Positions 39,562-44,779 of a stretch of DNA of 64,000 nt are shown here, in pieces. Position 1 is the first letter of the stretch. The number at the start of each line of letters is the position of its first letter. Source of the stretch: Agromyces aurantiacus. GTDB taxonomy: Bacteria > Actinomycetota > Actinomycetes > Actinomycetales > Microbacteriaceae. Position numbers and translations under genes: made by a program. The notes under the pieces are model-generated. The model did not search any database. It was given only the letters and a program-made list of their open reading frames with translations, and was not told the origin of the DNA. Location of the stretch: assembly GCF_016907355.1 (NCBI RefSeq), contig NZ_JAFBBW010000001.1:3658001-3722000 (forward strand), read 5' to 3'.

Positions 39562-39590
39562 TCGCGGCATCCGACCCCGACACGACGCGA

Positions 39591-39620
39591 ACGGCCCGTC
39601 GCCCCTCGGCGGCGGGCCGT
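39591..39620 (+). terminator. Hairpin terminator after the glutaredoxin gene
   Basis: ACGGCCCGTCGCC (39591-39603) and GGCGGCGGGCCGT (39608-39620) pair over 13 positions with one T-G wobble and a 4-base loop. It ends transcription before the operon at 39705. Confidence 0.65.
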
Positions 39621-39704
39621 CGGCGTGCCCGGGGACCTTCGCCCCTGCCGCGCCGCGCGATGCGCCCGCACGCTGGAGCCAGGCAGTCCTGACGGGAGAC
39701 GTCC

Positions 39705-42254
39705 ATGGCCAGCTCCGACCCGGAACCCGGCGCACACCCGGGACCGCTCGTCGTCGTCGCCGGGGACGTCACGGTCGACTGGAACCTCGCCCGGCGGCCG
39801 GTGTCGGCGCAGGCGCAGTCGCAGTCGCAGTCGGACGGTGGCCGGGCGCCCCACCGCGGCGGCGCGGCCCTGCTCGGCGATCTGATCGCGCTCACGGCCG
39901 CCGGGATGCCCGACCGCCGGCCTGCGCGGGTCAGCCCGCCCGAGCCGTTCGGCACGGTCGCGCCGGGAGACGGACGCCACAACCACTCCTACGCGGTCTG
40001 GAACCCGGCCGCGGGCGGCGATGGGTCGAGCGCACCGGCATGGCGTGTCGGCACGTTGCTCGGCACCGACCGAGCACGCTCGGACGAGCGCACGCGGCAG
40101 GAGTGGCAGCGCCTGGCGTCGGCGGCGGCGCGCGCCGACGTGATCGTGCTCGACGACGCCGACCTGGGCTTCCGCGACCTCTCCGACGCGACGGTGTGGG
40201 AGGCGACGCGGGCGAGGCGGCCGTGGATCGTGCTGAAGCAGTCGAGGCGCATCGCGCAGGGCCCGCTGTGGGAGCACCTGACCGCCGACGCGGCCGACCG
40301 GCTCATCGTCGTCGTCGCGATCGACGACCTCCGCGCCGACGAGATCCAGGTGAGCCGGGCGCTCTCGTGGGAGCGCACCGCCCAGGACCTGCTGTGGGAA
40401 CTCGTCAACGCCCCCGCCATGAACGCCCTCTCGCAGGTCGCCCACACGCTCGTGTCGTTCGGACCGTCCGGCGCCATGCTCGTCTCCCGGGACGCCCACG
40501 CGCCGCATCCGAGCTGCACGCTCTTCTACGACCCCGCGATCGCCGAGGGCGGCTGGGAGCTCGAGCACGCCGACGGGGTCATGGGCGGCACCGACTGCCT
40601 CGTCGCGGCGATCGCGTGCCGACTCCTGGGACGGCCGGAGACCCCGGACCTCGGCGGCGCGGTCGAGGACGGCGTCGCCGCGGCGCGGCTGCTGCACGTG
40701 CGCGGCTACGAGGAGGCCGGACCCGGTCGCACCGACCTGGCCTTCCCGCTCGACGCCGTGGCCGGGGCCCTGCGATCCGAGTCGGAGCCGCTCGTCGCGG
40801 TCGCGGTCCCCGAGCCGTCGGCGGACCGGTACTGGACCATCCTCGAGGACCGGTGCCGCGGGGCCCTCGACGCCACCGCGGCCGACGTGGTACGACGCGG
40901 CCCCTCCGCCGCGCTCGCGGGCGTGCCGCTGGGCCGCTTCGCGAGCCTGACGACCGCCGATCGCAGCGAGATCGAGTCGTTCCGCGGCGTCGCGGCGCTC
41001 ATCGGCGAGTACCTCACCTCGCCCGCGACCGCACCGCTCTGCATCGGCGTCTTCGGGCCGCCGGGCGCCGGCAAGTCGTTCGGCGTGAAGCAGGTCGCGA
41101 AGGCCGTCGCGGGCGGCCGGGTGAGCTCCGCGCTCGAGTTCAACCTGGCGCAGCTCGGCTCGACCGACGAACTCGCCGACGCGTTCCACGTCGTCAGGGA
41201 CACCGCCCTGTCGGGCCGGATCCCGCTCGTGTTCTGGGACGAGTTCGACAGCGACCTGATGGGCGAACCGCTCGGATGGCTGCGGCACTTCCTCGCCCCC
41301 ATGCAGGACGGCGAGTTCCGCCACGGCCAGCTCACGCACCGCATCGGACGGGCCATCTTCGTGTTCGCGGGCGGCACGGCCGCGCGCGTCGAGGAGTTCG
41401 GCCGTGGACTCGGGGAGGCGGACTTCCGCCGAGCCAAGGGACCCGACTTCGTCAGCCGGCTCCGCGGCTTCGTCGACGTCCTCGGGCCGAACGCGCACGG
41501 CCCGCAGGACCACTACGCCGTCATCCGTCGAGCGCTCCTGCTCCGCGCGATCCTCGAGCGGCAGGCCCCGCAGCTCTTCGACGGCTCGCGCCTGCGCATC
41601 GACAGCGGAGTGCTTCGCGCCTTCCTCGAGGTATCGGAGTACCGGCACGGTGCGCGCTCGCTCGAGGCGATCGTCGCTTCGTCGCACCTCGCGGGTGCGA
41701 GCACCTACGCGCGGTCCGCCCTGCCGCCGACCGCGCAACTCGGCCTGCACGTCGAGCCGGAGGACTTCGAATCGCTCGTGCAGCATCCCGACCTGGAGGG
41801 AGCGCTCCTCGAACGCCTCGCCCGCGCGGCCCACCGCGTGTACGAGGAGCGCCTCCCCGGCAGCCGGACGCTGGTCGCCTTCGACGACCTTCCGTCGTAC
41901 CAGCGGGAGCAGAACCGCGCGAACGTGCGCGACATCCCGACCAAGCTCGCACGGATCGGCTGCGTCATGGTGCCGGCGAGCGCGGCGGCCGCGCCCACGG
42001 AGCTCACCGCCGACGAGGTGGAGCGCCTCGCGGAGGACGAGCACGCGCGCTGGCTGCGCGACCTCGGGCCCGGATGGCAGTACGGCGCGACGAGCGACCC
42101 CGAGCGGCGGATCCACGAGGCCTACCTGCCATGGCCGGCGCTGCCCGACGACCAGCGCGACAAGGACCGCGAGCTGGTCCGCCGGATCCCGACGATCATC
42201 CGCGAGGCCGGGTACGCCATCGTCCGCACCCACCGGATGCCGGGGGCGCCGTGA
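39705..42254 (+). CDS. PfkB-like/AAA+/RyR-domain protein (switch ATPase of a TIR module)
   Basis: An 849-residue multidomain protein. Residues 10-350 resemble the PfkB/ribokinase fold: VVVAGDVTVDWNLA at the start and VMGGTDCLVAAIACRLLG near 293-308, where D297 takes the place of the GAGD catalytic Asp. Residues 420-640 form an AAA+ ATPase (Walker A GPPGAGKS 451-458; Walker B VFWDEFDSD, D512/E513; sensor-like FVSRLRGFVDVLG). Residues about 755-845 are a RyR domain (ERLAEDEHARWLRD, YLPWPALPD, KDRELVRRIPTIIREAGYAI). RyR domains in bacteria are associated with nucleotide-based conflict systems. It overlaps the TIR gene by GTGA. No known protein with this exact set comes to mind. Confidence 0.8.
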   Translation: MASSDPEPGAHPGPLVVVAGDVTVDWNLARRPVSAQAQSQSQSDGGRAPHRGGAALLGDLIALTAAGMPDRRPARVSPPEPFGTVAPGDGRHNHSYAVWNPAAGGDGSSAPAWRVGTLLGTDRARSDERTRQEWQRLASAAARADVIVLDDADLGFRDLSDATVWEATRARRPWIVLKQSRRIAQGPLWEHLTADAADRLIVVVAIDDLRADEIQVSRALSWERTAQDLLWELVNAPAMNALSQVAHTLVSFGPSGAMLVSRDAHAPHPSCTLFYDPAIAEGGWELEHADGVMGGTDCLVAAIACRLLGRPETPDLGGAVEDGVAAARLLHVRGYEEAGPGRTDLAFPLDAVAGALRSESEPLVAVAVPEPSADRYWTILEDRCRGALDATAADVVRRGPSAALAGVPLGRFASLTTADRSEIESFRGVAALIGEYLTSPATAPLCIGVFGPPGAGKSFGVKQVAKAVAGGRVSSALEFNLAQLGSTDELADAFHVVRDTALSGRIPLVFWDEFDSDLMGEPLGWLRHFLAPMQDGEFRHGQLTHRIGRAIFVFAGGTAARVEEFGRGLGEADFRRAKGPDFVSRLRGFVDVLGPNAHGPQDHYAVIRRALLLRAILERQAPQLFDGSRLRIDSGVLRAFLEVSEYRHGARSLEAIVASSHLAGASTYARSALPPTAQLGLHVEPEDFESLVQHPDLEGALLERLARAAHRVYEERLPGSRTLVAFDDLPSYQREQNRANVRDIPTKLARIGCVMVPASAAAAPTELTADEVERLAEDEHARWLRDLGPGWQYGATSDPERRIHEAYLPWPALPDDQRDKDRELVRRIPTIIREAGYAIVRTHRMPGAP

Positions 42255-43420
42255 CGCACGAGGTGTTCATCTGCCACGCCTCCGAGGACAAGCCGATCGC
42301 GGACGGCGTGTGCGCGGTGCTCGAGCAGGAGCGGATCCCGTGCTGGATCGCGCCGCGCGACATCCTGCCCGCCGACGACTACGGCCGGGCCATCCTCGAG
42401 GCGATCACCTCGAGCCGGCTCGTCGTGTTCGTCTTCTCGGCGAGCGCCAACGCGTCGCCGCACATCCGCCGCGAGCTCGAGCTCGCGGTGAGCAACGGCA
42501 TCCCCATCCTGCCGTTCCGCGTCGAGGACACCCTCCCCTCGGAATCGCTCCAGTACTACCTCGGCGGCATCCACTGGCTCGACGCGCTGACCCCGCCCAT
42601 GGAGGCGCACCTGCACCACTTGGCCGGGACCGTGCGCGTGATCCTGGATCGCGACCAGCCGACGCTGCGCGGCAACCGGGCGGCGACAGCGGCGGGGGCG
42701 GCGCCCGGGGCGCCGGCATCGCCCGGGGGCTCGGCGCCGCCGGCCCCAGCACCCGCGGCGCCGGCTGCGGCGTCGGCGACGTCTCCGCCCACGGTGCAGC
42801 CTCCACCCGCGGCGTCGGCACCGCCCGGCGGGCCGCCGCCGGCGACACCGCCCGCGACACCGCCCGCGGCCTCGCCTCGGCAGTCGCCCGCTGCGCGCCG
42901 ACGATCACCGCTGCTCTGGGTGCTCATCGGCGTCGGGGTGCTGGTCCTGGCCGGCGCCGGCGTCGCGATCGCCCTCGCGACAGGCCTCATCGGCGGCGGC
43001 GAGAGCGGCACCGGAGGTTCGACCGCGACTCCCGGCGCGAGCACCTCGCCCGAGATGGTCCTGTCGGAGCGCTCGTGCGAACTGCTCGATCCGGCGGATG
43101 TCACGGCCGTCTACGGCGCGGGCGCGGGTCCGCCGACCCCCGCGGGCGACGGGTACTGCGACTTCGCCGCGTACGAGTCGATCACGATCTACGTCGAGCC
43201 CGCGGGAGCGGCCGATCTCGCGGAGTGGCGCTCGACCGCGCCGGCCGGCACCGTCGACCTCCCCGACCTCGGCGGCGGGGCGTACCAGCAGCCCGACGGG
43301 ACGCTGCTCGTGTACGACCCGCAGCGCGAGATCATCTTCCTCATGCTCACCGGCGGGAGCACCGACGACGACTACCGCCGCCTCGTCGAGCTCGCCGGTC
43401 TCGTCGTCGCGACCTCCTGA
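42251..43420 (+). CDS. Membrane-anchored TIR-domain protein
   Basis: A 389-residue protein. Residues 1-130 are a TIR domain (EVFICHASEDKPIADGVCAVLEQ, CWIAPRDILP, AILEAITSSRLVVFVFSASANAS, PHIRRELELAVSN). E50 in AILEAI is at the position of the NADase glutamate of catalytic TIRs. Residues 145-215 form a P/A-rich spacer, 219-245 one membrane helix (LLWVLIGVGVLVLAGAGVAIAL), and 260-389 an extracytoplasmic domain with two cysteines (ERSCELLD and GDGYCDF), resembling DUF3558. It is translated from GTG overlapping the stop of the AAA+/RyR gene. The topology fits signalling or NAD depletion at the membrane. Confidence 0.85.
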   Translation: MTHEVFICHASEDKPIADGVCAVLEQERIPCWIAPRDILPADDYGRAILEAITSSRLVVFVFSASANASPHIRRELELAVSNGIPILPFRVEDTLPSESLQYYLGGIHWLDALTPPMEAHLHHLAGTVRVILDRDQPTLRGNRAATAAGAAPGAPASPGGSAPPAPAPAAPAAASATSPPTVQPPPAASAPPGGPPPATPPATPPAASPRQSPAARRRSPLLWVLIGVGVLVLAGAGVAIALATGLIGGGESGTGGSTATPGASTSPEMVLSERSCELLDPADVTAVYGAGAGPPTPAGDGYCDFAAYESITIYVEPAGAADLAEWRSTAPAGTVDLPDLGGGAYQQPDGTLLVYDPQREIIFLMLTGGSTDDDYRRLVELAGLVVATS

Positions 43421-43440
43421 CCCACGCGCCCACCACCCCT

Positions 43441-43664
43441 CCCGAATCCCGCCTTCGCGCGGGTGCACCCGCAAATACCCGGGACTCGCAAGCCAACCGC
43501 ACCCCACCCACCCCGAATCCCGCCTTCGCGCGGGTGCACCCGCAACAACCCGGGACTCGGAAGCCAACCGCACCACTCTCGCCCCCGCGAAGCGCTCGCC
43601 ACCCCGGGGCGAGCATCCCGAATCCCGCCTTCGCGCGGGTGCACCCGCAACAACCCGGGACTCG
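43441..43664. repeat. Three copies of a 48-bp repeat
   Basis: Copies start at 43441, 43512 and 43617. Units are almost identical (differing at one or two bases) and contain CCCGCCTTCGCGCGGG and GGGTGCACCC dyads. Copies 1 and 2 are also followed by the same 14 bp (AAGCCAACCGCACC). Spacers are 23 and 57 bp. Each could fold into a hairpin. Confidence 0.8.
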
Positions 43665-43714
43665 CGATGAACGAGTATCCCGCGCGATCGAGCGACGAGG
43701 CTCCGAGATGACAC

Positions 43715-43748
43715 GAACGGCGCGTCCCGACAGCGGGAAGCGCCGTTC
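43715..43748. terminator. Bidirectional hairpin terminator
   Basis: GAACGGCGC (43715-43723) pairs with GCGCCGTTC (43740-43748), and an inner TCCCG/CGGGA stem is separated by single unpaired bases, with a 4-base loop. It serves the TIR operon and the convergent LLM gene. Confidence 0.65.
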
Positions 43749-43777
43749 ACGTCATCTCACGGCCGAGGGGGCCGGGC

Positions 43778-44779
43778 TCAGCGCAGCGCGGGAAGCACCT
43801 CGCGCTCGTACAGGTCGAGCACCGACGTGTCGAACGCGAGCTCCGGGAAGTAGTGGATCGCGTAGCCGAGACCGCGGCGCTTCATGTCGAGCAGGCGCTC
43901 GATCACCTGGTCGACCGTGCCGACCGCGATCGCCGCGTGGGAGCGGTAGTCGCCAATGAAACGACGGGTCGCACCGGTGCCGAGGTACGGCGCGACGCGC
44001 GCCTCGAGGCGCTCGAGGCGCGCCGCGACATCCGCCTCGGACGTGCCGATCACCGTGTTGAAGTTGGCGCTGCGCACGATCGAGTCGAAGTCGCGCCCGA
44101 GCCGGTCGGTGTGCCCGCGCAGCACCTCGCTCTTGTGGCTGAACTCGTCGGGGCTGCCGTAGAAGTTCGTGTACGCGGCGTACTTCGCCGCGATCTTCAG
44201 CGTCACCTTCTCGCCGCCGCCGGCCACCCACATGGGAATGCCGCCCTCCTGGAGCGGCTGCGGCTGGAAGATCGCGCCGTCGACGGTGTAGTGCTCACCG
44301 GAGAAGTTCGCGCGCCCGGTGGCCCACGCCTGGTGCATGATCTCGACGCCCTCGCGCAGCATCCGCAGCCGCTCGGGGGCGTCGGGGAACCCGTAGCCGT
44401 ACGCGCGCCACTCGTGCTCGTACCATCCGGCGCCGATGCCCATCTCGAGCCGGCCGCCCGAGATGACGTCGACCGTCGCGGCGACCTTCGCGAGGTAGGC
44501 CGGGTTGCGGTAGGCCATGCACGTGCACATCTGGCCGAGCCGCACGCGCGAGGTCGACGCGGCGAACGCCGACATGAGCGACCACGCCTCGTGCGTGGCC
44601 TCGGTCTCGCTGTGCACCGGCACCGTGTGGAAGTGGTCGTACACCCAGATCGACTCCCACGGCGACCCGTCGCGGTCGGCGTGCGCGGCGAGGCCGTGCA
44701 TGGTCGACCAGTGCTCGGCGGGGTCGATGCCGACGAGGTCGTGGCGCCATCCCTGGGGAACGAAGTATCCGAATCGCAT
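43778..44779 (-). CDS. F420-type LLM-class oxidoreductase
   Basis: A 333-residue luciferase-like monooxygenase-fold enzyme. The first strand RFGYFVPQGW, the SIWVYDHFHTVPV segment, CTCMAYRNPAYLAKVAATVDVISGGRLEMGIGAGWYEHE and GGGEKVTLKIAAKYAAYTNFYG are typical of actinobacterial LLM proteins predicted to use coenzyme F420 rather than FMN. It probably reduces or oxidises a small organic molecule, but its substrate is unknown. The ATG at 44779 is followed by no longer family extension. It forms a single-gene unit ending in the hairpin at 43715. Confidence 0.88.
   Translation of the reverse strand: MRFGYFVPQGWRHDLVGIDPAEHWSTMHGLAAHADRDGSPWESIWVYDHFHTVPVHSETEATHEAWSLMSAFAASTSRVRLGQMCTCMAYRNPAYLAKVAATVDVISGGRLEMGIGAGWYEHEWRAYGYGFPDAPERLRMLREGVEIMHQAWATGRANFSGEHYTVDGAIFQPQPLQEGGIPMWVAGGGEKVTLKIAAKYAAYTNFYGSPDEFSHKSEVLRGHTDRLGRDFDSIVRSANFNTVIGTSEADVAARLERLEARVAPYLGTGATRRFIGDYRSHAAIAVGTVDQVIERLLDMKRRGLGYAIHYFPELAFDTSVLDLYEREVLPALR

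Follow-up and report, generated by a model that had tools for sequence, protein, structure and literature searches.

Thoeris is a two-gene system in which a TIR protein (ThsB) is encoded beside a larger putative receiver of an ADP-ribose (ADPR) type nucleotide, the effector ThsA (SIR2-SLOG or macro). Whether animal ryanodine receptors respond directly to cyclic ADP-ribose (cADPR) is a long-standing question. It is also raised in the closest paper found, which deals with phage RyR proteins (PMC13232231). According to this paper, phage RyDEP is a glycosidase that cleaves TIR-made 2'/3'cADPR via H75/D117; six of eight tested RyDEP homologues bind the signals, but only RyDEP cleaved them. Here, we describe two overlapping genes, A and B, from Agromyces aurantiacus. 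They are encoded in a stretch of 64,000 nucleotides, referred to as the window (contig NZ_JAFBBW010000001.1, positions 3,658,001 to 3,722,000), to which all coordinates refer. Protein A combines a PfkB-like fold and an AAA+ module with tandem RyR repeats, while B is a TIR protein with a predicted membrane anchor. Our preferred, still tentative reading is that the pair was acquired and acts as a Thoeris-like alarm: the TIR domain would make an ADPR/cADPR signal and the RyR-AAA+ protein would receive it. A more specific version is a bacterial immune pathway leading from TIR via a cADPR isomer to an RyR-type domain, realized as a host-side, operon-encoded pair whose output is an AAA+ motor; this we consider possible but hold more loosely.

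Genes A (39705-42254, 849 residues) and B (42251-43420, 389 residues) are located on the forward strand and overlap by GTGA, forming a tight operon (39705-43420). The initial annotation had proposed this two-gene operon, which is confirmed, and had assigned PfkB-like, AAA+, RyR and TIR domains as well as a membrane helix, which are upheld by profile matches and predicted models. As in Thoeris, the TIR gene lies beside that of a larger putative receiver. However, A is devoid of SIR2, SLOG and macro domains according to Pfam, PADLOC and NCBIfam (E <= 1), and the proposed receiver is an RyR domain on an AAA+ ATPase. Also, B differs by its membrane helix and C-terminal domain. The ThsB_TIR model reaches 14.9 bits on B (cut-off 21.2), and PADLOC yields no ThsB match for B at E <= 1. 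Because the ThsA effector domains are absent, the pair is not a member of Thoeris; it appears to represent TIR-based nucleotide signalling outside that system.

Another set of related systems are the nucleotide-centred conflict networks (SLOG, SLATT, LSDAT, TIR, RelA/SpoT). Partners of these kinds are found at other A loci (the SLOG, LSDAT and single SLATT matches being weak), but PADLOC and NCBIfam contain no model that fits either of the two proteins. Matches of A to PADLOC mad8 (18.9 bits, E 2.2e-4) and of B to PADLOC SAVED_TIR (20.1 bits) and NCBIfam Retron_TIR (22.8 bits, cut-off 600) were set aside as too weak, and A was rejected as QatA (NCBIfam equivalog, 12.3 bits, cut-off 600). The papers covered in an open library, which lacks a 2015 article on nucleotide-centred conflict systems, show no description of the A/B pair. 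That article may mention bacterial RyR domains, and the logic of the neighbourhoods may in part be published already.

The RyR family (PF02026) matches A with 36 bits (gathering threshold 27.4). Conservation was assessed in an alignment of the best 120 of 796 proteins found at E <= 1e-15 among 7991 scored, with the window protein included. These 120 homologues span 44-100% identity; the other 676 may include proteins that share only the RyR part. With 796 proteins passing this threshold, the A family is not small. The second RyR repeat (residues 772-840; 42018-42224, forward strand) harbors H780, W783, H804 and D821. They correspond to H75, W78, H100 and D117 of RyDEP, as judged from motif, spacing and alignment rather than from the RyDEP sequence itself. 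A belongs to the same domain family as RyDEP and has the same four ligand residues. H780 is found in all 120 homologues, D821 in 118 (with two gaps), W783 in 111 and H804 in 80. The first RyR-like repeat (residues ~697-757; 41793-41975) has a shortened ligand loop in this protein, as seen when it is aligned with relatives in which the repeat is complete (e.g. those from loci L005 and L015; loci are labelled L### and genomes G###). Its H710 is kept in 119 of 120 homologues, and Pfam detects two RyR stretches in those from L010 and L012.

Tandem RyR repeats are shared with the animal ryanodine receptor R12, and the best PDB sequence matches of A are to 6uhi (E 6.3e-15, or 2.3e-32 with a profile). 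In contrast to the animal receptor, A has no channel and its first repeat has lost the ligand loop. Compared with phage RyDEP, A is chromosomal, is fused to PfkB-like and AAA+ parts, and shares an operon with a TIR gene. An RyR protein from a Pectobacterium phage, when aligned with A, keeps all four ligand residues. Some other RyR domains in the same alignment deviate: in one from L005, the second His is replaced by Q, and in that of a synthetase from L011, the Trp is replaced by F. The RyR part alone matches 18 of 50,697 phage records at E <= 0.01, while none is matched by A as a whole. In 34 of 394 actinobacterial genomes from the class (L017-L034), the match to A was confined to its RyR tail; by eye, several of these proteins look like TrkA-type membrane proteins. 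RyR-TrkA_N proteins (assigned by Pfam at L015, and by eye for Streptomyces-type lookalikes) have the RyR tail in common with A but show no PfkB or AAA+ part.

Protein B starts with a TIR domain (residues 1-134; 42251-42652, forward strand; TIR_2, 74.1 bits). The glutamate pointed out in the initial annotation is indeed conserved: the putative catalytic E75 (42473-42475) is invariant in all 22 aligned B homologues. It is located in helix alpha-C, which is where TIR NADases carry their catalytic glutamate. We take it to be the equivalent of SARM1 E642, based on motif rather than on a residue-level superposition. A fold search places the B TIR domain close to those of SARM1, RUN1, SPARTA and AbTir, which cleave NAD+. 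A Pro-rich linker leads to a single membrane helix (residues ~219-243; 42905-42979) that is preceded by RRR. By the positive-inside rule, this would place the TIR domain in the cytoplasm. The C-terminal domain (residues 264-389; 43040-43417) is predicted to be located outside the membrane and has a confidently predicted fold, the block means of the predicted local distance difference test (pLDDT) being mostly >90. Its relation to DUF3558, a type that occurs on actinobacterial surface lipoproteins, rests on 3 of the 22 B homologues that match it (best E 2.1e-4), the window protein not being among them; the fold-search lists were filled by TIR matches. TIR relatives of B carry varied extra domains. 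The TIR_2 domain beside A is the only one in its genome.

The AAA+ module of A (residues ~420-693; 40962-41783, forward strand) is conserved in 119-120 of 120 homologues at its motif positions. Invariant residues are Walker A K457, Walker B D512/E513, sensor 1 G556/T558 and the putative sensor 2 R651, while the putative arginine finger R585 is kept in 119; arginine finger and sensors were assigned by motif position. This motif set is complete, as in ring-forming AAA+ proteins, the ring itself being predicted. Foldseek matches include ClpA/ClpC chains (best E 1.5e-8). The initial annotation had labelled A as STAND/AAA+. The STAND (or NLR) label is not supported: the best STAND profile match (nSTAND_NTPase5) reaches 18.9 bits (cut-off 34), and A retains R585 and R651, its putative arginine finger and sensor 2 residues. 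In addition, Pfam detects neither WD40 nor TPR repeats in A.

The N-terminal part of A (residues 14-374; 39744-40826) adopts the ribokinase/PfkB fold. At the catalytic Asp position of the GAGD motif, A reads GGTD (D297), with the column matched by motif. As Asp occupies this column in only 27 of 120 homologues, compared to Thr in 62, most of the aligned A proteins are probably pseudo-kinases. An active sugar kinase is thus unsupported for the family, even though the window copy has the Asp.

Based on these features, the following mechanism can be envisaged for the alarm. The C-terminal domain of B, predicted to lie outside the membrane, would sense an envelope or phage event. B, with its predicted membrane anchor, would turn NAD+ into an ADPR or cADPR signal; its TIR domain would yield a soluble product and not simply deplete NAD+. 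The RyR domain of A would bind this signal and, with the RyDEP catalytic pair being present, may also hydrolyse it. The pseudo-kinase fold could serve as a second nucleoside-binding or scaffolding module. Signal binding would switch the AAA+ motor, and the AAA+ ring may then remodel a target or arrest the cell.

The same residues would also serve a guard, with B as a membrane TIR NADase that kills and A as the protein that restrains or resets it. In that case, the RyR domain would hydrolyse or sequester stray (c)ADPR as RyDEP does, while the AAA+ ring would dismantle TIR assemblies. Conservation of the RyDEP catalytic pair is stricter than mere binding seems to need. Clp-type AAA+ rings remodel proteins, A has ClpA/ClpC among its structural matches, and a Clp gene is located between A and a TIR gene at L040. 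However, the size of A far exceeds that of a simple antidote. Moreover, in PMC13232231, RyDEP was the only one to cleave despite the similarity of the other proteins tested, so the residues are no proof of hydrolysis. Guard and receiver use the same residues and are not distinguished by sequence; we regard the guard as rather unlikely.

Nineteen A loci were examined for neighbours (window, L003-L015, L035, L036, L037, L040 and L041). Selected neighbours were subjected to Pfam (10 + 8 + 7 of 8 proteins), whereas the others were assigned from their first residues. The partner counts are therefore in part visual calls and may be underestimates. The initial annotation had stated that the operon has no other partner, which holds at the window locus but does not extend to distant relatives. 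TIR genes were found near A at four loci (window, L013, L015, L040) and SLOG-like genes of the GVTGHR type at five (L004, L005, L012, L013, L015). RelA/SpoT-type genes (57-59 bits, cut-off 27) abut A at L008 and L011, a SIR2 gene is near A at L035, and DUF4062-NACHT genes occur at L005, L010 and L012. At least one TIR, SLOG-like, RelA/SpoT or SIR2 gene is present at 10 of the 19 loci (9 of 18 without the window), or at 11 when the DUF4062-NACHT gene of L010 is included.

The RelA/SpoT-type neighbours bear on the order of signalling. The initial annotation had invoked a sensor ATPase that activates a TIR NADase. Applied to this pair, A would detect infection and activate the TIR NADase B by contact, with the RyR domain binding another nucleotide, e.g. 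one produced by the RelA/SpoT-type partners. ATPase sensors do activate effectors in other systems. However, no STAND-type profile matches A above cut-off, and Pfam detects no WD40 or TPR repeats in it; it is B that has a receptor-like build, with its membrane helix and the varied extra domains among its TIR relatives. We consider this alternative improbable, and prefer signalling from TIR to RyR-AAA+.

Several individual loci deserve description. At L011 (5898-8489) and L008 (10635-12665), a RelA/SpoT-type domain is joined to a weak LSDAT match (at L011 also to RyR), directly beside A. L015 (2214-10021, Bacteroidales) carries an operon-like run of TIR-TPR, SH3-like (by eye), A, SLOG-like and TrkA_N-RyR genes, all in one direction, with gaps <80 bp or overlaps. 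Its TrkA_N-RyR protein has membrane segments by eye and is channel-like, encoded near a TIR gene. On a Methylobacterium plasmid (L035, 1876-12253), 1.4 kb separate the A homologue from the gene for a SIR2-TPR protein of 2082 residues; transposase-type genes are located in this interval and also adjacent to the two genes. At L040 (8249-16200), the A homologue is followed by the Clp ATPase gene and a TIR gene, while a second TIR gene is on the other strand. L009 (6450-7077) has, close to the A homologue, a gene assigned by Pfam as a HepT-like RNase; the gene upstream of it resembles a nucleotidyltransferase by eye. L036 codes for a large ATP-binding protein 4 kb from A, with a NACHT match below cut-off.

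The initial annotation had suggested a search of actinobacterial genomes for conserved RyR-AAA+/TIR pairs. Homologues of A and B occur on contigs of equal size in four cases besides the own genome (4589119, 18693, 6536 and 5601), so the pair is probably conserved in close relatives. This comparison covered sizes >= 5000 among the 120 best homologues of each protein, in a database without gene context. For the 4589119 contig, A is 83% and B 73% identical, and both records are from Agromyces bauzanensis. Both records of the 6536 contig are from Agromyces sp., and this size implies that A and B are within ~3 kb of each other. In genome searches, A was detected in none of 36 other genomes from the genus, in 1 of 398 from the family (the own genome) and in 2 of 396 from the phylum (own and G830), while its PfkB-AAA+ part was matched in 2 of 394 from the class (own and G401). 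As two first-look candidates were scored per genome in the class, family and phylum searches, distant copies may be missed. A B-type TIR is present in 2 of 60 genus genomes, the own and G1194; the latter is a different TIR (44%), with no A within the 18 kb fetched.

Mobile elements provide few matches. In viral contigs, a profile scan yielded a single A match (L037, plasmid-like by eye and without an RyR match), and a scan with the window query yielded none. Plasmids contain two distant A matches. Plasmids gave no B match; for a domain this common, that is unexpected and may reflect an insensitive search. With no whole-A match among the phage records and few viral or plasmid matches, a phage or plasmid origin of the pair was rejected. 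The A homologues from L036 (9620-11746, Streptomyces linear plasmid) and L037 (7287-10181, from a viral collection) lack an RyR match.

The insertion site was analyzed via the downstream gene, called LLM by eye (43778-44779, convergent to B), which 57 of the 60 genomes from the genus carry, the own included. Flanks of 1.5 kb were surveyed at 29 of the 56 other-genome loci with an LLM match. In 24 of the 29, a glutaredoxin-like gene is found 37-1207 bp from LLM, with neither A nor B in between; in the closest relative (G009, LLM 91% identical), this gap is 96 bp. Because the flanking genes adjoin without A and B, the pair looks like an inserted cassette, and gain of two genes at this site is the simplest reading. 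This also bears on a non-immune role, in which the pair would sense surface stress or NAD status for regulation of envelope or metabolism. The DUF3558 matches among B homologues would fit such a role, as would the direct neighbours in the window, which by eye are ordinary chromosomal genes that lie together in relatives. However, sporadic presence in the family and the frequency of empty sites fit a defence-type cassette better than housekeeping, and the partners near other A genes are of conflict-system type. A non-immune role thus seems quite improbable.

Several observations weigh against the alarm as proposed. At the RyR site, H804 is the counterpart of a phosphate-contacting His but is replaced by Asn in 31 of 120 homologues. 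An RyR match is missing from five of the 17 A proteins in the alignment: those of L009, L014 and L036, by elimination that of L016, and that of L007, whose contig ends before the RyR part. At 8 of the 19 loci (L003, L006, L007, L009, L014, L036, L037, L041), none of the counted partners was seen, with A being cut by the contig at L006 and L007 and several of the other flanks being short. The SLOG-like call is based on a motif and a weak YAcAr match (E 0.054, 2 of 5 genes), with no match of GVTGHR genes in the PDB (best E 0.93). Also, the LSDAT matches of the L008 and L011 partners (20.6 and 17.5 bits) are below the cut-off of 25.4. A partner is more frequent where A has an RyR match (9 of 11 loci, compared to 1 of 6 without; Fisher p 0.03, window counted, L006 and L007 dropped). 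This is suggestive only: the value rests on small numbers, on partners called partly by eye and on the regrouping of L009, and with L009 counted as RyR-bearing, as in an earlier grouping, the ratios were 9/12 and 1/5 (p 0.10). For TIR partners alone, there is no difference (3 of 11 and 1 of 6, p 1.0). At L040, TIR genes neighbour an A homologue without a Pfam RyR match, an argument against a general need for RyR where TIR occurs. Pairing by equal contig size is indirect evidence, and a fifth equal size (26730) was ambiguous and not counted. Concerning acquisition, the glutaredoxin-like gene is outside the 1.5 kb flank at 5 of the 29 surveyed loci. The content of guanine and cytosine (A 74.4%, B 74.9%, window 73.4%) is that of the host and gives no sign of foreignness.

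Should the alarm model be correct, RyR-AAA+ would join SLOG and macro as a receiver type in TIR signalling, and the presence of free-standing RyR proteins in phages would have one possible explanation. In the more specific version with a cADPR isomer as signal, the cADPR-RyR link of animals would have bacterial roots. With its RyR ligand residues intact, the A/B operon is a compact two-gene system in which the cADPR-RyR link could be tested.

The initial annotation had described the operon as isolated by hairpins and repeats. The hairpins are seen, one between the glutaredoxin-like gene and A (39585-39626, forward strand, z -2.3) and a strong one between B and the convergent downstream gene (43705-43758, z -7.6). 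The repeats, three copies directly downstream of B (43422-43668, forward strand), belong to an ordinary dispersed palindromic family. With up to 3 mismatches allowed, the palindrome is found at 28 genomic sites; 2-4 copies often form an array, in which they are mostly spaced by ~71-84 bp.

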